Shown here: in pieces, positions 8,455 to 19,384 of the stretch
Layout of the letters: every line of letters begins with the position of its first letter
Numbering within the stretch: the stretch's first letter is position 1
Assembly: GCA_021784115.1 (NCBI GenBank)
Contig: JAJXTE010000010.1
Location: 1-38,861, forward strand
DNA length: 38,861 bases
From: Pseudomonadota bacterium
GTDB lineage: Bacteria > Pseudomonadota > Gammaproteobacteria > Burkholderiales > Thiobacillaceae
Reading direction: 5' to 3'
Notes under the pieces: model-generated
What the model was told of the DNA's origin: nothing
The model's database searches: none
The model's input: the letters and a program-made list of their open reading frames with translations, nothing else
Made by a program: the position numbers and the translations under genes

Positions 8455-8576
8455 ATATTGGGTCGAACTGCGTGTTTCCATTTCCCGCTTGAGCGACCGT
8501 ATGGTCCGCGCTAGTCTTCGCTCACATGCCGAAAAATCGACGCATGGCCGATCAACGAATAGTGGAGATACACATC

Positions 8577-9479
8577 ATGGCGCACCTGCAAGCTGTCCGG
8601 ACCACCCTGCAACCGCAGCAGAACGATTACAGTCAGCTCACGACCTATTACGACGAGCTCAATCAGGTTGCATGGGGCTACATGAATGCTGAACCCCGGC
8701 CCTGCTTTACAGGGACCCTGCTGCGGGAAATCGTCGATTGGTTCGGCGACGTGGCCAGACGGATTGACGACCCGGAATGCGCCGACGTGAATTATGTGGT
8801 CGTTGCCTCGGGCCACCCCGGGATCTACAACCTCGGGGGCGATCTCAACCTGTTCCGCGGCCTGATCGAAGCGCGTGATCGCGAAAGTCTGTACAAATAC
8901 GCACAGGCCTGCATTCGCCCCCTCTTTCTGAACGCCCTGCATTTGAATCGTCCCAGCGTGAAAACCATTACGCTGGTGCAGGGCGATGCCCTCGGAGGCG
9001 GCTTCGAGTGCGCGCTATCGGGAAACGTCCTGATCGCAGAACGCGGATCGAAAATGGGCTTCCCGGAAATCCTGTTCAACCTGTTTCCCGGCATGGGGGC
9101 CATGACCCTGCTGGGCAGGAAAATAGGCTACGGCAAGGCCGAAAAAGTCATTCTGAGCGGCAAGCTCTATAGCGCCGAAGAAATGTACGAACTGGGCGCC
9201 GTCGATGTTCTCGTGGAACAGGGAGCCGGCGAGCAGGCAGTCTACGAGTTCATCCGCAAGGAGGCGCGCCAACGCAATGGCGCGTTGGCATTGCGCGCAG
9301 CCCGCGAATTGTCGCAGCCGATTGCGCATGACGAACTCATGCGGATCGCCGAAATCTGGGTGGATGCCGCGTTGCGGCTCGAGAGCAAGGATTTGCGCAT
9401 GATGGAACGTCTGGTCGCGCGGCAGACCGGCAAGGCCGATGCCGTGAACAGCGACGCTTCAACTGTGCTCAGCGCGTAG
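8577..9479 (+). CDS. rpfF: DSF signal synthase, RpfF (crotonase superfamily)
   Basis: A 300-residue cytoplasmic enzyme of the enoyl-CoA hydratase fold. In Xanthomonas, RpfF is a dual thioesterase/dehydratase that makes cis-2-unsaturated fatty acids (diffusible signal factor) from 3-hydroxyacyl-ACP. Both catalytic glutamates are present: E144 in LGGGFECALSG and E164 in MGFPEILFNLFPGMGA, 20 residues apart as in Xanthomonas E141/E161. The oxyanion-hole region YNLGGDLNLF (85-94) and the RpfF-type N terminus (YYDELNQVAWGYMNAEPRPCF) separate it from ordinary crotonases. GGAGA at 8564-8568 with eight-base spacing selects the ATG at 8577 over the earlier in-frame ATGs. It converges on rpfC with a 21-base 3' overlap, matching the xanthomonad arrangement. 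No rpfB lies alongside. Confidence 0.93.
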   Translation: MAHLQAVRTTLQPQQNDYSQLTTYYDELNQVAWGYMNAEPRPCFTGTLLREIVDWFGDVARRIDDPECADVNYVVVASGHPGIYNLGGDLNLFRGLIEARDRESLYKYAQACIRPLFLNALHLNRPSVKTITLVQGDALGGGFECALSGNVLIAERGSKMGFPEILFNLFPGMGAMTLLGRKIGYGKAEKVILSGKLYSAEEMYELGAVDVLVEQGAGEQAVYEFIRKEARQRNGALALRAARELSQPIAHDELMRIAEIWVDAALRLESKDLRMMERLVARQTGKADAVNSDASTVLSA

Positions 9480-11990
9480 CCGGCTGGCCTGGTAGGCGAC
9501 AAGCTCGACCTGCGTGGCAGCCAGGGCATCCCGTACTGAATCGAGCCTGTCCTGGGCCAGGCTGGTTGCGAGTTCAAAGGGCTTGATGCGTTCGGCTTCC
9601 GAGCATCGCTGCGCCAGCAGATTGGCGCCGACATCACGGGCGCCGCCTTTCAGCGTGTGCAGCTGATCGTGCCACAGGCCGTAATCCTGGGCCGTCAGCG
9701 CGCGCTCGATGTCGCGCAGGGCGCGTGCGCTGTCTTCCTCGAAACTCGCCAGCAGATCCGTCACGAACCCCGGCCCGCCGAGCTGGGCGAGGTTGTCCAG
9801 AACCGATTCGTCCAGTTCGCTCGCCGTCTGCTGCCCGCTGGCGAGGCCCGCGGCGACGGGCTGGCCTAACTGGCCCGCCAGCCGGGCAATCGTCTCGATC
9901 AGTTCGCGGCTGTTGACCGGCTTGGTGAGGAAGGCGTCCGCACCGGCATCTTCGCAGGCGGTCTGCGCCTCGCCGCGCGCATCGGCGGTGAGCATGATGA
10001 CGGGCAGATGCCCGGATTCCATGAAACGCCAGCGCTGCACCACCTCGGGCCCGGACAAATGCGGCATGTGCATGTCGATGACCGCCAGGTCGAACGTCTG
10101 GTCGTCCGATTCGAGCATGCTGAGCGCTTCCTCGCCGTCCTGCGCCAGAAAGGTCTTGTGCCCGGCGTGTTCCAGCAGACCGCGGATCACCCGCTGGTTG
10201 ACCGGGTTGTCCTCCGCCACCAGGATGGTCAGACCCGGCGCGAGACCTGACTGCGTCTGAAAATGGCTGGCCAGCGACACCACGTTGGACGGCATGTCGT
10301 GGCTGATGACGGCGTGGATGGCGTTGAACAGCAGCGTGGTGTTGACGGGGGTACGCAGCACCGAGGCATAGCCGTCACGCATCAGCTGCGCGTCGCGCGA
10401 GAGCGCGACGCGGGCGTCGGATTCGATGAGAATGACCGGCAAGCTTGCCAGGCTGGGGTCGTCGTGCAGCAAGTGCAGAAAGGCAGCCGGGTCACCCGGC
10501 AGTGCGCTGCGTTCCACCACGACCGCGCCCAGAGGCGTATCGCCCATGAGGTAGGCGGATAATTCGGCGGCAAGCCGGGCGGTATTGTCGACAGCCACGG
10601 TGTCGGCGCCCCAGTTGCGGATCGTCGCCTGAAGGCGGGTCGAGAGCTCCCCGCTCGCCAGAATCGCCACCCGCATCGGCGCGTCCAGCCGCTCGGGTGC
10701 GGGACCGGACTGGCTTGCCTGCAGGGTGAACGGCAGTTCGAACCAGAATGTCGTGCCCTCTCCTTCGCGGCTATGCAGGCCGATCTGGCCGCCGAGCGCT
10801 TCCACCAGCTGCTTGGCGATGGTGGTGCCGAGGCCGCTGCCGCCGAAGCGGCGCGTGATGGTCGGATCCGCCTGGGTGAAGCTGTCGAACACGCGGGAGA
10901 CTGCGGCCTCCGAAATGCCAATGCCGGTGTCGACCACTTCGAAGCGCAGGCGTTGCGGGTCGGCTTGGCCGATCGGGCGCACGTAGATATCCACCCGCCC
11001 GTGCTCGGTGAACTTGATGGCATTGCCGATGAGGTTGATGAGGACGTGGCGCAGGTGGCGGACATCGCCATGCAAATGGAACGGTGTCTGTGGCGCGATG
11101 TGCGACGCCAGTACCAGCCCCTTCCCCTGGGCCTGCGTTTCCATCATTGCGATCGTGCCGTTCACCACGCGGTGCAGGTCGAAATCCTCCTCGTTCGTGG
11201 CAATGCGGCCGGCTTCGATGCGGGAAATGTCGAGCACGTTGTCGATCAGATCGAGCAGGGTGTTGGCAGAGGCGTGGATGAGCTGGGCAAGCTCCTTTTG
11301 TTTCGCATCGAGCTGCGTTTCGGTGAGCAGATCGGCGACGCCAATGACGCCGTTCAACGGCGTGCGAAGCTCGTGGCTCATGTTGGCGAGGAAATTCGAT
11401 TTGGCCTGGTTGGCCTTCCGCTCGCGCTGAATTGCAGAATGGACCTGCTTCAGCAGCGATGCCGAATAAAGCGGAACGGCGATCATGGACAGCACGAAGG
11501 CCACCCCGATCGACATGTGCTGGCTCCAGTAGGGCGAGTAGGCGAGAACGAGCACAAAACCCGTGATCGCCATGGCGGTGGCGGTGTACAGGTAAGCCAC
11601 GCCATAGCGAAATCCGTTGCCCAGCGTGACCCACAAATACACCACCAGCAGGGGACTTCCCGCTTCTCCGGTATAGGTCAGCAGGAACGAGCACGTCGCA
11701 TAGTCCATCGCCATCGCGGCTATGCGGCGCAGGGGTGAAACCTTCAGGCTGGCCAGCGTGAGCGCAACGATCACGACGGCCATTCCGGTGAACAGGATGC
11801 TGACAAACTGCGCGGTGCCGCGTATGGCGTCGTCAAGTACCGCGTGCTGGCTGGAGAAATACGTCAGAAAGACAAGCCCGATCACGACGCGAATCAGGCC
11901 CTGCTGGCATTCGGTATCCGGCCTGCTGCGAATCCGTTTGGCCAGGAATTGCAGGAATCGGGGGGTCGACTGATGAAGCATCGCCTTCAT
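9459..11990 (-). CDS. rpfC: DSF sensor, RpfC-type hybrid histidine kinase with Hpt
   Basis: 843 residues. The input region (about 30-185) has five or so membrane helices, as in RpfC. HisKA carries H206 (NFLANMSHELRTPLNGVIG); the ATPase domain (about 305-422) has INLIGNAIKF, DTGIGIS and GGSGLGTTIA. Residues 438-565 look like a degenerate receiver lacking the phospho-Asp. A true receiver follows (587-705; D639 in VIDMHMPHLSG, K690), then an Hpt domain with H778 (HTLKGGARDVGA). RpfC binds DSF, relays phosphate to RpfG and restrains RpfF by direct contact in Xanthomonas. Xanthomonas RpfC is about 726 residues; the excess is the pseudo-receiver. The ATG at 11990 follows the rpfG stop by seven bases, so the two form an operon; an ATG at 11981 is an alternative. 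Confidence 0.92.
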   Translation of the reverse strand: MKAMLHQSTPRFLQFLAKRIRSRPDTECQQGLIRVVIGLVFLTYFSSQHAVLDDAIRGTAQFVSILFTGMAVVIVALTLASLKVSPLRRIAAMAMDYATCSFLLTYTGEAGSPLLVVYLWVTLGNGFRYGVAYLYTATAMAITGFVLVLAYSPYWSQHMSIGVAFVLSMIAVPLYSASLLKQVHSAIQRERKANQAKSNFLANMSHELRTPLNGVIGVADLLTETQLDAKQKELAQLIHASANTLLDLIDNVLDISRIEAGRIATNEEDFDLHRVVNGTIAMMETQAQGKGLVLASHIAPQTPFHLHGDVRHLRHVLINLIGNAIKFTEHGRVDIYVRPIGQADPQRLRFEVVDTGIGISEAAVSRVFDSFTQADPTITRRFGGSGLGTTIAKQLVEALGGQIGLHSREGEGTTFWFELPFTLQASQSGPAPERLDAPMRVAILASGELSTRLQATIRNWGADTVAVDNTARLAAELSAYLMGDTPLGAVVVERSALPGDPAAFLHLLHDDPSLASLPVILIESDARVALSRDAQLMRDGYASVLRTPVNTTLLFNAIHAVISHDMPSNVVSLASHFQTQSGLAPGLTILVAEDNPVNQRVIRGLLEHAGHKTFLAQDGEEALSMLESDDQTFDLAVIDMHMPHLSGPEVVQRWRFMESGHLPVIMLTADARGEAQTACEDAGADAFLTKPVNSRELIETIARLAGQLGQPVAAGLASGQQTASELDESVLDNLAQLGGPGFVTDLLASFEEDSARALRDIERALTAQDYGLWHDQLHTLKGGARDVGANLLAQRCSEAERIKPFELATSLAQDRLDSVRDALAATQVELVAYQASRLRAEHS

Positions 11991-11997
11991 GCGTCGC

Positions 11998-13119
11998 TCA
12001 TGCTTCGGGCTCGCCAAACTCGCGCATGACGGCAGCCACGGCATCGATGCGCCGTTCGAATGCACGCGCGCAGTCGGGATCAAAATGGCGCCCGCTCTCA
12101 GTCTGGATGAACGTCAGCGCATCCTGGAACGACCACGCGCGCTTGTAGGGGCGGTCCGACGTGAGCGCGTCGAACACGTCGGCCACGGCCACAATTCGCG
12201 CAGGCAAGGGGATGGCCTGGCCAACCAGCCCCTGCGGGTAGCCGGTGCCGTCGAATTTTTCATGGTGGCCGAGCGCGATCACCGCGCCCATCTGCAGGTA
12301 GCGCGAGGGGCTGTCGGCAAGGATCTCGTGGCCGATCTGCGGGTGGCGGCGCATGATCTTCTGCTCTTCCGGTGTGTGCCGGCCGGGCTTCAGCAGAATC
12401 TGGTCGGGAATGCCGATCTTGCCGATGTCGTGCATCGGCGAGGCGGCTTCGATTTCGTCGCATTCCATCGCGGTGAGTCTGAGTTCCTCTGCGATCAGGC
12501 GGGCATATTTCGACATGCGGATAATGTGGTTCCCGGTTTCCTCGTCGCGATATTCGCCTGCCTTGGCCAGTTTCATCAGGGTTTCGCGTTCGCGCGTGCG
12601 CACTTCGCGGGTGGCCAGCATGACCTGGTCCTCCAGCCACAGTGCGCGGTCGGCGACCAGTTTCTGGCTGCGTCGCAGCGCCAGTAGATTGAGGCAGCGG
12701 GCGCGGCATTCCTGCGGATCGATCGGGCGCGTGAGGAAGTCGGTCGCGCCGTTTTCCAGCGCCTGATAGCGGACCTGGCGGTCTTCGACCACGGTGACGA
12801 TGATGATGGGCACGTCGGCGAGGCGACGTTCAGCGCGGATGCGGCGGGTAAACTCGATGCCGTCCATGCCGGGCATGCGGTAATCGGTGATGATGAGGTC
12901 GGGCGTGTCGACTTGCATCTGCGTCAGGGCGTCGAGCGGATCCGCGTAGCTTTCCACGATCACGCCCGGTTCCAGTGTGCGGGCCAGGCCTTCCAGCAGG
13001 CTGCGCGCGGTACTCCGGTCGTCGACGATCACAATGCGTGCACTGCCACGCGGGCGTGCGCCGCGTTGCGGGGCCGGCGACATGGAAGAGGGCACAATGC
13101 GCAACGGCTCGGCAGTCAC
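11998..13119 (-). CDS. rpfG: RpfG, receiver-HD-GYP cyclic di-GMP phosphodiesterase
   Basis: A 373-residue response regulator. The receiver (about 28-145) carries D79 (LIITDYRMPGMDG) and K/R switch residues. The HD-GYP domain (about 175-360) has HD at 230-231 (MHDIGKIGIPD) and GYP at 293-295 (HHEKFDGTGYPQGL), all residues needed for c-di-GMP hydrolysis. In xanthomonads RpfC-phosphorylated RpfG lowers c-di-GMP, changing motility, biofilm and secretion. The frame is open up to a GTG at 13149, but the GTG at 13119 has AGGGA six bases upstream on the minus strand while 13149 has no ribosome site, so 13119 is preferred. It heads an operon with rpfC. Confidence 0.92.
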   Translation of the reverse strand: MTAEPLRIVPSSMSPAPQRGARPRGSARIVIVDDRSTARSLLEGLARTLEPGVIVESYADPLDALTQMQVDTPDLIITDYRMPGMDGIEFTRRIRAERRLADVPIIIVTVVEDRQVRYQALENGATDFLTRPIDPQECRARCLNLLALRRSQKLVADRALWLEDQVMLATREVRTRERETLMKLAKAGEYRDEETGNHIIRMSKYARLIAEELRLTAMECDEIEAASPMHDIGKIGIPDQILLKPGRHTPEEQKIMRRHPQIGHEILADSPSRYLQMGAVIALGHHEKFDGTGYPQGLVGQAIPLPARIVAVADVFDALTSDRPYKRAWSFQDALTFIQTESGRHFDPDCARAFERRIDAVAAVMREFGEPEA

Positions 13120-13207
13120 TTTGTTTCCCTGGATGGTAGATAAAACCACGGTTTCATAGAATTATCGGGCAAATGAAAAGTGAACTTTAACCCCTGAGGG
13201 AACCGAG

Positions 13208-13960: not shown

Positions 13961-14842
13961 TTACCCCAGCAGCCGCGTCATCGCCTCGCGGTATTTCTCG
14001 CTGGTTTTGGCGACGATCTCGGCAGGCAGCGCCGGTCCCGGCGCCTGCTTGTTCCAGCCGCTGGCTTCCAGCCAGTCGCGCACGAACTGCTTGTCGAAGC
14101 TGGGCGGGTTGCTGCCGGGCCGGTACGGGTCGGCCGGCCAGAAACGCGACGAATCCGGGGTCAGCGCCTCGTCGATCCACACCAGCTTGCCGGCTTCGTC
14201 GAGTCCGAACTCGAACTTGGTGTCGGCGATGATGATGCCGCGAGTGAGCGCATACTCTGCTGCAGACTTGTACAGGGCAAGGCTGACGTCGCGCACCTGC
14301 TTGGCCAGGTCGGCGCCGATCAGGTCGGCCATCCGGTCAAAACTGATGTTCTCGTCGTGGGCGCCGACCGCGGCCTTGGTCGACGGCGTGAAGATCGGTT
14401 CGGGCAGGTGGCCGGCCTGCGCGAGGCCGGCCGGCAGCTTGATGCCGCACACGGACTGGCTGGCCTGGTATTCCTTCCAGCCGGAGCCGACCAGGTAGCC
14501 GCGCACGATCGCCTCGACCGGCAGCGCCTTCAATTTTCTCACCACGATCGCGCGGCCGGCGACCTGGTCGCGCTCGGATTCCGCCACCACCGATTCCGGC
14601 GCGATGTCGAGTGCCTGGCTCGGCACGATGGCCTTCAGCTTGTCGAACCAGAAGGCCGACACCTTCGTCAGCACTTCGCCCTTGCCGGGGATCGGCGTCG
14701 GCATCACCACGTCGAACGCCGAGAGGCGGTCGGTGGTGACGATCAGCAGCTTGTCGTCGCCGACGGCGTAGATGTCGCGCACCTTGCCGCGGTGGACCAG
14801 CGGGAGCGAAGCGATGCGCGATTCAAGTAGAGGTGCGGACAT
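13961..14842 (-). CDS. purC: SAICAR synthetase, PurC (purine biosynthesis)
   Basis: The 293-residue portion from the ATG at 14842 is a complete phosphoribosylaminoimidazole-succinocarboxamide synthase of the longer (yeast Ade1-like) form common in betaproteobacteria. Motifs present are [58 protein letters not shown] and [13 protein letters not shown]. It joins aspartate to CAIR using ATP. No stop codon separates it from the membrane protein upstream: the frame is open from 15943 to 13961 (660 codons). No convincing ribosome site precedes the internal ATG, but a TATAAT on the minus strand (14873-14878) could be a -10 for independent purC expression. It belongs functionally with purM, purN, purE and purK nearby. 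Confidence 0.93.
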
Positions 14843-15943
14843 GGCGGACGAAACGGAACCGGAAGAGTCGGCATTATAGCCGCCGCGATAGAAGGCACTG
14901 GCCTCGTACACCCCGCGCAATTCGCGCAGCGCCACCAGCAGGATCGCCGCCAGCGGCACCGCGAGCAGCACGCCGACGAAGCCGAACAGCTGGCCGAACG
15001 CGGCCAGCGCGAAGATCACCGCCACCGGGTGCAGGCCGACGCGCTCGCCGACCAGACGCGGGGTGATGACATAGCTTTCCAGCACCTGCCCGGCCAGATA
15101 GATGCCCGCCACCCAGGCCACGCCGGTCCAGTCGGAAAACTGCAGCAGCGCTACCAGCATCGCCAGGATCACGCCGAGGCCGAAGCCGAGGAAGGGCACG
15201 AAGGACAGCACGCCGGTGAGGATGCCGATCGGCAGCGCGTAATCCAGTCCCGCCGCCCATAGCGCAACGGCGTAGTACAGCGACAGCGTGGCCATCACCG
15301 CCAGCTGGCCGCGCAGGAATTCGCCGACCACCGCGTCCATCGCGCGGGCAACGCGGGTGACGGTGTCCATCCAGGGACGCGGCGCCAGTGCGGCAACCCG
15401 CGCCACCATCACGTCCCAGTCCTTCAGGAGATAGAACATCACGACCGGAATCAGCAGCAGGTTGGCCAGCACGCCGACGATGGCGAGCGCGCCGGTCTGC
15501 AGCTTGGGCAGCCAGGCGGCGCCGTTCTGCGTGGCCTTTTCGGTGAGCCAGGTCTGCAGCGCGGCGAGGTTGAAATTGACCGTGATGCCGAGGGTCTGCT
15601 GCAGCCAGGGCAGGAAACGGGTCTGCAGCATGTCGAGGGCGGCCGGCACGCGCTGGCTTAATTCGGCGAACTGTCCCTGAAACAGCGGCAGCGCCACCAG
15701 CAGCAGGGCGAAAAGCGCCAGCCCGGCGACCACGATGACGACGACCGTGCCGGTCGTGCGCGACAGTCCGTGCGTTTCCAGGCGATCGACCAGCGGGTCG
15801 AAGATGTAGGCGAGCAGCGCGCCTGCGAGAAAGGGCGTCAGGATGGGGCGCAGCAGGTAGACCAGTCCGCCCGTGGCGAGCAGCACGGCGAAGGCAAGCC
15901 AGGGGATGTTGCCGGGCAGGCCCGGGCGTCGGATAGGGTGCAT
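14843..15943 (-). CDS. PerM/AI-2E (UPF0118) family permease, frame continuing into purC
   Basis: About 352 residues of an eight-helix membrane protein of the PerM/YdiK/TqsA (AI-2 exporter-like) family: N-terminal pair of helices ([20 protein letters not shown]), a long soluble segment (60-150), and conserved C-terminal motifs [17 protein letters not shown] and [19 protein letters not shown]. This matches the full family length. After AFYRGG, a Ser-rich stretch ([12 protein letters not shown]) runs straight into Met of PurC, so 14843 marks only the domain border, not a stop. A +1 shift near 14880 would meet a TAA at once. The start is the ATG at 15941-15943; it is divergent from purM with a 40-base gap. 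AI-2 export is not implied by the name. Confidence 0.8.
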
Positions 15944-15983
15944 AGGCGGTAAAATAGCGCACTTTTTGATTCTGGAGCCGGGC

Positions 15984-17012
15984 GTGTCTTCCATTTCCTA
16001 CAAAGATGCCGGTGTCGATATCGACGCCGGCGATGCACTGGTCGAGCGCATCAAGCCGCTGGCCAAGCGCACCATGCGCCCCGAGGTGCTGGCGGGCATC
16101 GGCGGCTTCGGCGCGCTGATCGAGATTTCCAAGAAATACAAGGAGCCGGTGCTGGTCTCAGGCACCGACGGCGTCGGGACAAAACTCAAATTGGGGTTCG
16201 AGCTGAACCGCCACGACACCGTCGGCATCGATCTCGTCGCCATGAGCGTTAACGACATCCTGGTGCAGGGCGCCGAGCCGCTGTTTTTCCTCGATTACTT
16301 CGCTTGCGGCAAGCTCACCCTGGACACCGCCGAAGCCGTGATCGCCGGCATTGCGAGAGGCTGCGAGCAGGCCGGCTGCGCGCTGATTGGCGGCGAAACC
16401 GCCGAGATGCCAGGCATGTACGCCGACGGCGAGTACGACCTCGCCGGCTTCGCCGTCGGGGTGGTGGAAAAATCCAAGGTGATCGGCGGCCAGTCCATCG
16501 CACTGGGTGACGTGGTGCTGGGGCTGGCGTCGTCCGGCGCGCATTCCAACGGCTATTCGCTGATCCGCAAGCTGATCGACGTGTCAGGCATCGGCCTGAA
16601 ATCCGACTTCCACGGCCATCCATTTTCCGACGCGGTGATGGCGCCGACGCGCATCTACGTCAAGCCGCTGCTGGCGCTGATGGAAAAACTGGCCGTGAAA
16701 GGCATGGCGCACATCACTGGCGGCGGCATCACCGGCAATCTGCCGCGCTGTCTGCCGGAGAATGTTGCCGCACGTGTCGATCAAACGTCATGGACGCGTC
16801 CGCCGCTGTTCGACTGGCTGCAGCAGGCGGGCAACGTCGAGCCCGCCGAAATGCTGCGCACTTTCAACTGCGGCATCGGCATGTGCGTGGTCGTGGCCGC
16901 ATCTGACGCCGCCGCCGCAACGGCACATCTGCAGGCGAGCGGCGAGACCGTGTGGCAGATCGGCGAAATCGTCGCCCGACCTGAAGGTGCGGAGCAGGTG
17001 ATCTATTCGTGA
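15984..17012 (+). CDS. purM: AIR synthetase, PurM (purine biosynthesis)
   Basis: 342 residues; converts FGAM to aminoimidazole ribotide using ATP. Conserved features: [13 protein letters not shown] (58-70), [23 protein letters not shown], the [11 protein letters not shown] segment of the active site, [31 protein letters not shown] and the C-terminal [11 protein letters not shown]. The start is GTG at 15984, preceded by TGGAG at 15973-15977 with six-base spacing; no ATG fits. A -10-like TAAAAT lies at 15950-15955. Its last codons overlap purN (GTGA at 17009-17012), so purM and purN are translationally coupled. It is divergent from the perM-purC frame. Confidence 0.97.
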
Positions 17013-17641
17013 CCTGCCGGATTGTCGTGCTGCTGTCCGGGCGCGGCAGCAATTTCCGGGCGATCGCCGAGGCTGAACTGCCGATCGACATCGTCGCGGT
17101 CATCAGCAACCGGCCGCAGGCGGCGGGGCTGGCCTGGGCGCGTGAGCGCGGTATCCAGGCGGTCGCGCTCGACCACACCGAGCATGCCGACCGCGCAGCC
17201 TTCGACGCCCTGCTGGCCGACGAGATCGAGCGCCACTGTCCCGACCTCGTCGTGCTGGCCGGCTACATGCGCATCCTCAGCCCGGGCTTCATCGCGCGCT
17301 TCGAAGGCCGCCTGCTGAACATTCATCCCTCGTTGCTGCCGATGTTCCCGGGCCTTAAAACCCACGAACGCGCGCTTGCCGAAGGGGTGAAGATCCACGG
17401 CTGCACCGTGCACTTCGTAACCGCCGATCTGGACCACGGCCCCATCGTCATCCAGGCCGCGGTGCCGGTGCGGGGGGACGATACGCCGGACACGCTCGCG
17501 GCCCGTGTGCTGGCGCAGGAGCACCGCATCTACCCGCAGGCAGTGCGCTGGTTCGCCGAAGGGCGCCTCGCGATTCGCGATGGCCGCGTAAACTTGAAGG
17601 ACAATTCGACGTCACAGTCAGTGTTAGCCACCGGAGCGTGA
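17009..17641 (+). CDS. purN: GAR transformylase, PurN (purine biosynthesis)
   Basis: 210 residues; transfers a formyl group from 10-formyl-THF to glycinamide ribonucleotide. The catalytic set corresponds to E. coli N106/H108/D144: N104 and H106 in [12 protein letters not shown] and D142 in LDHGPIV. The N-terminal [13 protein letters not shown] binds the ribose phosphate. GTG start at 17009 overlaps the purM stop. It is followed closely by the first DUF3108 gene (ATG three bases after the stop), so that gene probably rides on the same transcript. Confidence 0.96.
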
Positions 17642-17643
17642 CC

Positions 17644-18342
17644 ATGATCAAACTTCTTTTGCTCGCCGCGAGTCTGTTCGCCGCCGCCGCGCAGGCCGCG
17701 GGCCCGTCCCAGATGAACGTGGTCTACGACCTCTATCGCAATGGCATCAAGCTCGGCCAGGTGACCGACACCTTCACTCGCAGCGGCACCCGCTACACCC
17801 TGACCAGCGAGACCCGCGCGACGGGTCCGCTGAAGCTGCTGTGGCCGGGCAATATTCGTCTTGAAAGCGCCGGCGTGGTGACGCCGCAGGGCTTGCGCCC
17901 CACGCAATTCCAGCACGCCCGCAGCGATGCGCCCAACAAACTGGCGACCGCCCGTCTCGACTGGAAGCAGCGCAGCATCGCCTACCAGTACAAGGGCGAA
18001 TCGTGGCGGGTGAACGGCCTGCAGAACGGCGCACAGGACCAGCTGTCGCAGGTGTACCAGTTCATGTTTGCGCCCAGCCTCCCCGCCGATTACAGCGTGC
18101 AGGTCGTGAGTGGCCGCGATCTCAACCAGTATCGCTATGCGCGCAGCGAGGGCGGCACCATCCAGACGCCCCTGGGCGCGCTGGCGACCCAGCGCTATCA
18201 GCGCATCACGCAGAAACCCGACGAAAAGGCCATCAGCGTGTGGGTGGCCCCCGCACGCAACAACCTGCCCGTGCAGATCCGCGTCAGCGAAGACGGCGTC
18301 ACCGTCGAGCAACGCCTGGTGCGCGCCAGCGTCAAAGGCTGA
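17644..18342 (+). CDS. Exported DUF3108 protein
   Basis: 232 residues with a clear signal peptide (MIKLLLLAASLFAAAAQAAG). The mature part is a beta-rich DUF3108 domain with YDLYRNGIKLGQVTDTF, YTLTSETRATG and a later YARSEGGTIQTPLGAL block. DUF3108 proteins are periplasmic or envelope proteins of unknown function, often next to purN/purM in betaproteobacteria. GGAG at 17633-17636 with seven-base spacing selects the ATG at 17644. It overlaps nothing downstream but the second DUF3108 gene starts five bases after its stop. Confidence 0.82.
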   Translation: MIKLLLLAASLFAAAAQAAGPSQMNVVYDLYRNGIKLGQVTDTFTRSGTRYTLTSETRATGPLKLLWPGNIRLESAGVVTPQGLRPTQFQHARSDAPNKLATARLDWKQRSIAYQYKGESWRVNGLQNGAQDQLSQVYQFMFAPSLPADYSVQVVSGRDLNQYRYARSEGGTIQTPLGALATQRYQRITQKPDEKAISVWVAPARNNLPVQIRVSEDGVTVEQRLVRASVKG

Positions 18343-18346
18343 ACGC

Positions 18347-19384
18347 GTGGGGCGCCGCGTTCGCCCGTGGTGGCTGGCGCTGGCGGGTTCCTTGCTGCTG
18401 CATGGCAGCCTGCTGGGCGGACTGGAATGGCGCTTCCCACATCGGGCGCCGCCTGTGGAACCGCCAACGATCGACGTGCAACTGGTCACGCCACCGAAGC
18501 CGGTGCCGCAGATTGCCCCGGCCGCTCCGCCTGCCCCGCGCCGGCCACCGCCGGCCAGGCCGCTTGCATCTCGCCTACCCTCGCCACCGCCCGCGGCGCT
18601 CCTTCCAGAAGCCGAAGCCGAACGTGAACCCGAACCGGTTGCCGAGGCCGCCGCGCCCGAGGTGCCCGCCGAGCCGGCTCTCGCCGAAGTCGCGGCGTCC
18701 CCCGCCGCATCCGCCGGCCCGGCAGTCCCCGACGTCGTGCCGGCGCCCCTGAATGACCTGCCGCCGCGCATCGACATGCGCTTCCAGTTGCGCTACGGGC
18801 TGGCGTCGGGCGAGCAGACCCTGGTATGGGTGAACACAGGCGAGCGCTACACCCTGACCAGCGTGGCGGCGGCGACGGGTCTGAGCGGAATTTTTTATCG
18901 CGGCCGGTTTGCGCAGACCAGTCGCGGGCGCATCACGCCGCGCGGTCTGCAGCCGGAGGAATTCTGGGATCAGCGCGGAAACGCGCGCAGCAGCGCGCGT
19001 TTCGATGCAGGCAGCGGCGATCTCGTGCTGGATCCGGCAAAAGGCCCGCCGCGTCACTTTGCCTACTCGGGCGACGTGCAGGATGCGCTCAGCCTGTTTT
19101 TCCAGCTGGCGCTGACGGCCCCGCCACCGGGCGGGCAGCTGACCTATCGGGTGTTCAACGGCAAGAAGCTGCGCGACTACACGTATGAAGTGCGTGGCGA
19201 GGAAACGCTCGACACGGCACTCGGCCCGTTGCGCACCCTGCATCTTGAGAGGGTGGCCGATCACGACGAGGGCCGCTTCGAAGCCTGGCTGGCGATCGAC
19301 CGCCACTACTTGCCGGTGCGCGTGCTGCGCAGCGACGACACGGGCAGCGAGATGGAGCTCCGGGTGGAGTCGATCGCGCCCTGA
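18347..19384 (+). CDS. Membrane-anchored proline-rich DUF3108 protein
   Basis: 345 residues starting from GTG at 18347. An N-terminal membrane helix (WWLALAGSLLLHGSLLGGL, residues 8-26) is followed by a Pro/Ala/Glu-rich region (about 35-130, many PP and PEP-like units), then a DUF3108 domain (about 140-340: FQLRYGLASGEQTLVW, YTLTSVAAATGLSG, RITPRGLQPEEFW, VRGEETLDTALGPLRTLHLERV). The layout resembles TonB: one helix, an extended Pro-rich spacer that can cross the periplasm, and a C-terminal globular domain. It is a tandem paralogue of the upstream gene. Function is unknown; envelope role inferred. Confidence 0.78.
   Translation: MGRRVRPWWLALAGSLLLHGSLLGGLEWRFPHRAPPVEPPTIDVQLVTPPKPVPQIAPAAPPAPRRPPPARPLASRLPSPPPAALLPEAEAEREPEPVAEAAAPEVPAEPALAEVAASPAASAGPAVPDVVPAPLNDLPPRIDMRFQLRYGLASGEQTLVWVNTGERYTLTSVAAATGLSGIFYRGRFAQTSRGRITPRGLQPEEFWDQRGNARSSARFDAGSGDLVLDPAKGPPRHFAYSGDVQDALSLFFQLALTAPPPGGQLTYRVFNGKKLRDYTYEVRGEETLDTALGPLRTLHLERVADHDEGRFEAWLAIDRHYLPVRVLRSDDTGSEMELRVESIAP

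Follow-up and report, generated by a model that had tools for sequence, protein, structure and literature searches.

An in-frame fusion of a PerM-type permease to PurC, probably with a nested purC promoter and start, is conserved in Thiobacillus and a second genus

In the window analysed here, a stretch of 38,861 nucleotides from a Thiobacillus-type genome, an AI-2E/PerM-family permease and the essential purine enzyme PurC are encoded by a single open frame on the minus strand that runs from an ATG at 15943 to a stop codon at 13961 (660 codons), and the same in-frame, stop-free junction is present in 57/57 loci of the family (57 genomes) in which a permease lies upstream of purC. Judged from the sequences, the locus is a new domain combination that is conserved in a clade and contains a nested promoter-like box and start codon. 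We consider it fairly probable that this arrangement represents an old gene fusion that is shared across the clade and has purC nested within it, and that it gives rise to two products.

Both parts of the fused frame match their families over almost the entire profile. Residues 16-342 of the fusion match PF01594 (AI-2E_transport) in Pfam with an E value of 9.4e-58 and 196.4 bits, the curated cut-off being 34.3, and cover profile positions 3-326 of 327, i.e. the whole domain. Residues 383-635 match PF01259 (SAICAR_synt) with an E value of 1.8e-74 and 250.9 bits, and cover profile positions 2-231 of 233, as for a full-length PurC. Moreover, the PurC part aligns near full length with long-form SAICAR synthases, i.e. 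the yeast enzyme 1a48 (E 6.8e-81 by phmmer, covering 1a48 residues 11-300) and 6yvq (E 4.8e-80), and it is the single PurC match in the window genome. A further in-frame ATG lies upstream of the fusion start, at 15994. On the minus strand, the junction reads GGC GGC TAT AAT GCC ... GCC ATG TCC. The features of the locus are listed in Table 1.

Table 1. Features of the permease-PurC locus and the divergent purM side in the window
Feature	Positions	Strand	Basis or distribution
AI-2E/PerM-family permease part, residues 1-355, ends FYRGG, without its own stop codon	14879..15943	-	PF01594
12-residue linker joining the permease to PurC in frame	14843..14878	-	open in 57/57 loci
TATAAT, probable -10 box of an internal purC promoter, Tyr-Asn in the fusion	14873..14878	-	identical in 57/57 fused loci
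PurC (SAICAR synthetase), 293 aa, own ATG at 14842 within the fused frame	13961..14842	-	PF01259; phmmer to 1a48
TAAAAT, probable -10 box of the divergent purM	15950..15955	+	in 62/62 loci examined
purM (AIR synthase), divergent from the fusion	15984..17012	+	PF00586 and PF02769
purN-type formyltransferase, downstream of purM	17009..17641	+	PF00551

Elsewhere in the window (9459-13149), Pfam identifies receiver and Hpt domains in a hybrid histidine kinase, the gene of which overlaps with that of a receiver-HD-GYP protein downstream; we take this pair to resemble RpfC/RpfG. The neighbouring gene at 8526-9479 encodes an enoyl-CoA hydratase-like protein, i.e. a member of the family that also includes RpfF. 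Downstream of purN, two DUF3108 genes are arranged in tandem and overlap (17638-19384).

The family search was carried out with PurC in 117 genomes, the window genome included, and the junctions were then retrieved. The 57 fused loci, from a group of sulfur oxidisers, are split between the window's genus (49 loci) and a second genus (8 loci). The 56 genomes of the window's genus yielded 53 readable junctions, 49 fused and 4 without the permease; G086, in which PurC had no match, and G073 and G079, in which the PurC N terminus is missing, were dropped from the counts. In the second genus, 8 of the 9 genomes were readable and 8/8 were fused, and G116 was dropped with no PurC match. PurC is incomplete in the available sequence for 5/57 fused loci, and G054, which is among the 49 fused genomes of the window's genus, has an N run in the permease-coding part, ahead of the junction. 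With a shared open frame that is conserved across species and both parts intact (57/57 loci), the locus qualifies, at the level of sequence, as a true translational gene fusion.

The fused relatives that carry names are Thiobacillus (L092, L093) and Comamonadaceae bacterium UBA2334 (L103). The best fusion segment in the public record of the latter is 86% identical, and this record resembles Thiobacillus. By its label, L104 is Thiobacillus sp. UBA2487; its PurC is just 68% identical and its purC leader matches that of L206 from the sister group described below, and this label may be wrong. One genome of the window's genus, G096, with loci L056 (G096:C36) and L025 (G096:C16), has a second PurC that is more distant (67% identical) and lacks an upstream permease match. 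In many species of the window's genus, variable in-frame insertions (e.g. GQPLL) are found directly after the PurC start (loci between L004 and L050).

Outside the two fused genera, no further fusion was seen among the loci and matches examined. For the other genera of the family (52 genomes), a permease was found in none of the 27 purC upstream regions inspected, one of which is short, and the remaining 25 genomes had no frame of at least 600 codons around PurC, with no PurC match in 3 of them. For 20 loci taken from the order outside this family, the upstream DNA examined contained no permease in 18 cases, and the other two belong to the sister group; in G180, G256 and G396, the permease was also absent from the upstream DNA examined. 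An order-wide search covered 300 genomes, and among the matches listed, full-length ones lead and come from 3 genomes, all from the two fused genera. Eight further loci from this search have long open frames around PurC, and 8/8 had no permease in the upstream DNA examined. In a class-wide search of 369 genomes with a strict cut-off, which a distant fusion could escape, the window itself was the sole match. Similarly, 0 plasmid records had a match covering 80% of the query. Finally, a PurC-permease fusion was not found in full-text searches of the literature, as judged mostly from the result listings.

The TATAAT box and the PurC ATG are both unchanged in 57/57 fused loci, silent positions included. 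In the remainder of these proteins, TAC (514) outnumbers TAT (384) for Tyr and AAC (367) outnumbers AAT (91) for Asn; silent changes in TATAAT would therefore be expected if the protein alone mattered. Moreover, the 30-base spacer that separates the two unchanged elements has accumulated 223 inferred changes in the genus. This conservation shows that a likely purC -10 box and the PurC ATG have been retained inside the 3' end of the permease gene. The first-pass annotation had pointed out a TATAAT on the minus strand at this position and suggested that it might allow separate transcription of purC. The hexamer is present as described, and its invariance supports a -10-like function; a -35 consensus hexamer for purC was not found in a sigma-70 promoter scan. 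Because TATAAT and ATG are invariant in 57/57 loci, we conclude that free PurC is very probably also produced from the internal start.

The spacer after TATAAT has a constant length in each genus, i.e. 30 nt in 49/49 loci of the window's genus and 27 nt in 8/8 loci of the second genus, and the two lengths differ by exactly one codon. In the second genus, the stretch upstream of TATAAT comprises 16, 23 or 25 codons and is always in phase. We compared the purC leader with that of the divergent purM in the 49 fused loci of the window's genus, in which the purM leader is 27, 28, 29 or 37 nt. While the purC leader had 0 length changes against 223 substitutions, the purM leader had 10 length changes against 73 substitutions (Fisher p 1.4e-6); with the purM T run clipped, 9 length changes were left (p 5e-6). 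These p values are rough because the parsimony counts, which the test treats as independent, come from a single control leader that in part consists of a slippery T run. The constant length of the linker in the genus suggests selection on the frame.

All three frames of the spacer are free of stop codons in 49/49 and 8/8 loci. However, 160/300 frame-blind simulations also gave no spacer stops, and the absence of stops on its own is thus not significant; the A-poor composition of the spacer (6% A) makes it uninformative, and we rejected it as proof of selection. Spacer changes at codon positions 1/2/3 amount to 77/55/91, a weak periodicity with permutation p values of 0.046 to 0.105 in three variants. 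The corresponding counts are 1000/513/2366 in the permease and 410/340/1872 in PurC (after the first 20 codon columns, 49 loci), and the PurC counts have the pattern of purifying selection. From the leader and linker lengths, however, we see moderate evidence that selection on the fused product maintains the joined frame.

The sister group, which contains Sulfuriferula, was represented by 18 genomes, 7 of which have a permease beside purC; for G409, the upstream sequence amounts to only 37 bases. In 7/7 adjacent pairs, the two genes are unfused with a stop codon between permease and purC, and the permeases of these 7 loci occupy all three phases relative to PurC. In G308, G337 and G417 (L200-L202, Sulfuriferula group), the permease stop is the TAA inside the TATAAT of purC. 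In G410 and G415, the permease is in phase with PurC and stops 39 and 42 bases before the ATG, just ahead of TATAAT, and G415 has a further in-frame stop beyond the first. In G395 and G408, the permease stops 251 and 151 bases ahead of the PurC ATG. The purC leaders of the sister group range from 27 to 36 nt, two loci for which an earlier ATG was picked being set aside. The first-pass annotation had named a stop at this junction in relatives as evidence against its reading; such a stop is absent from 57/57 permease-carrying loci of the family and present in 7/7 loci of the sister group.

A permease search of 16 genomes gave matches in 13, and the stand-alone permeases checked all (12/12) lie beside a divergent purM. 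Unlike the fusion, 12/12 stand-alone relatives have a stop codon no later than the position from which the fused permease runs on into PurC; in 4/12, the stop follows near the same residue (...SSLYR, ...KASRFY), and in 8/12 it comes several residues sooner (...LKxQLD or similar). In a permease tree of 76 rows with a midpoint root, for which a long-branch warning applies, the 57 fused rows form one group with a support of 96/97. In a PurC tree built from 109 rows, the positions of both fused genera among other genera are not resolved, nor is the second genus recovered as one group. Because the PurC tree does not unite the genera and the permease tree carries the long-branch warning, two origins of the fusion are possible. 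The state of the sister group, with its stop codon, looks like the condition before the fusion, and the loss of a single stop codon at an in-phase junction would be the simplest history. In this scenario, an ancestor within the Thiobacillus group would have had the permease head-to-head with purM, directly upstream of purC and in phase with it, and the permease would have lost its stop codon; since then, it would have been translated through the promoter and start codon of purC into PurC.

Four species of the window's genus lack the permease and, hence, the fusion. In their loci (L022, L040, L043, L045 and L055 from 4 genomes), TATAAT and ATG are kept in 5/5, and the spacer from TATAAT to ATG is 29 nt in 5/5 and, therefore, out of frame. 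In loci of sufficient length, purM lies directly upstream of purC; a close copy of the permease was not found elsewhere in these genomes. In the PurC tree, G074 is apart from the group of G069, G078 and G068, and the fused G059 falls inside that group with moderate support. The permease-free loci thus have a common 29-nt spacing even though the PurC tree does not unite them, which may reflect a single event, a transfer or chance.

Three other explanations of the fused frame were considered. The window genome is a metagenome-type assembly of 155 contigs with a completeness of 91%, and an error in sequencing or assembly could have deleted a stop codon or a base; a missing base or a lost stop had also been raised by the first-pass annotation. 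However, the junction is the same in 57/57 loci, 56 of which lie outside the window genome, and two of the genomes concerned (G053 and G058) consist of a single contig. This recurrence across genomes refutes the error, to which we attach practically no probability, and a recent loss confined to the window genome is rejected by the same observation; the TAA that the annotation had met on a +1 shift near 14880 is the TAA within TATAAT. We conclude that the read-through from permease into PurC is real, as the annotation had proposed. It is also very improbable that PurC is made solely as a membrane fusion, with TATAAT and ATG persisting as relics. While a Shine-Dalgarno-like 4-mer before the PurC ATG is absent in 57/57 fused loci and present in 48/49 of the purM controls, and while the missing -35 hexamer would also fit such an obligate fusion, the 6 bases of TATAAT and the 3 bases of ATG have zero changes in 57 loci compared with the 223 changes in the 30-base spacer in the genus, and the box is retained in species without the permease.

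In the third explanation, the read-through is passive, i.e. PurC is a harmless tail on the permease, free PurC alone matters, and the length of the linker is fixed by the distance between the -10 box and the ATG. We consider this explanation, which provides the main alternative to selection on the joined frame, unlikely, but not negligibly so. It would account for the invariant TATAAT and ATG, by which the expression of purC itself is clearly selected, and for linker amino acids that drift nearly freely; moreover, a spacer that is free of stops in every frame leaves selection against stops unproven, and the permease-free species also have a constant spacing of their own (29 nt, 5/5 loci). By contrast, the comparable purM leader, which changed length 10 times in the same genomes, and the variable purC leaders of the sister group speak against a fixed distance as the cause of the constant linker. 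Similarly, every difference in linker length within and between the two fused genera preserves the frame.

The permease part is in the same sequence family (PF01594) as the AI-2E family protein TqsA (PDB 7nb6) and PerM-type permeases. By phmmer, it matches 7nb6 with an E value of 6.4e-10 over residues 29-345, and 7nb6 was also the best Foldseek match of the permease model (E 2.2e-5), with a TM score of only 0.30. An AlphaFold2 model of the permease alone had a mean pLDDT of 71.2 and twelve helices, and is usable for a list of helices only, with membrane crossings uncertain. The model of the whole fusion, with a mean pLDDT of 56.5, was too poor for use and was discarded. Hydropathy and a charge count did not decide the side of the permease C terminus. 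For a related AI-2E protein, which is a distant relative, a periplasmic C terminus was reported on the basis of a PhoA fusion (PMC7221264); a C-out topology of this kind would place PurC on the wrong side of the membrane. Tentatively, we expect the PurC domain to be on the cytoplasmic side. The structure entry of TqsA contains five chains, and by analogy these would fit an oligomer that bears several PurC domains.

A PurC-type domain is likewise joined to another protein in vertebrate PAICS, a fusion of CAIR synthase and SAICAR synthase (PMC10912719). However, the partner in PAICS is a soluble enzyme that acts at the adjacent step of purine synthesis, whereas here it is a membrane transporter, and the description of PAICS does not include a nested promoter. 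The yeast enzyme 1a48 and 6yvq differ from the fused PurC in being stand-alone enzymes.

In-frame nested genes have an internal start from which a short isoform is made in addition to the long one, with two starts in one frame and a common C-terminal domain. The locus described here differs from these in that the parts are whole, unrelated proteins and in that the internal start apparently has its own promoter inside the coding end of the upstream part.

In total, we favour a model in which the locus directs the synthesis of a free PurC of 32 kDa from the internal promoter and a PerM-PurC protein of ~70 kDa. Because no stop codon separates the parts, the long protein would be made whenever the permease is translated, and a complete permease without an attached PurC would not be encodable unless the product is cut. 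Two pools of PurC would therefore be expected, one soluble and one borne by the permease. A further-reaching version, which we regard as doubtful, is that the two pools of SAICAR synthetase in Thiobacillus and the second genus are deliberate, and that the enzyme is free on the one hand and anchored to a multimeric PerM-type transporter on the other, coupling purine synthesis at the membrane to the cargo of the transporter or to a signal.

The loci compared here form a natural series for the formation of a gene fusion, which extends from separate genes through a stop codon within the promoter of the next gene and a stop in phase to a junction that has none; in some lineages, the upstream half is missing. 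If the version with two deliberate pools is true, the fused loci would provide a membrane-tethered purine enzyme that arises from a nested gene, with a promoter that is also read as protein. Moreover, the long product, if it exists, would put a purine-pathway enzyme on a membrane transporter, and this would be a direct clue to the role of the PerM-type permeases, which are adjacent to purM in the relatives checked.
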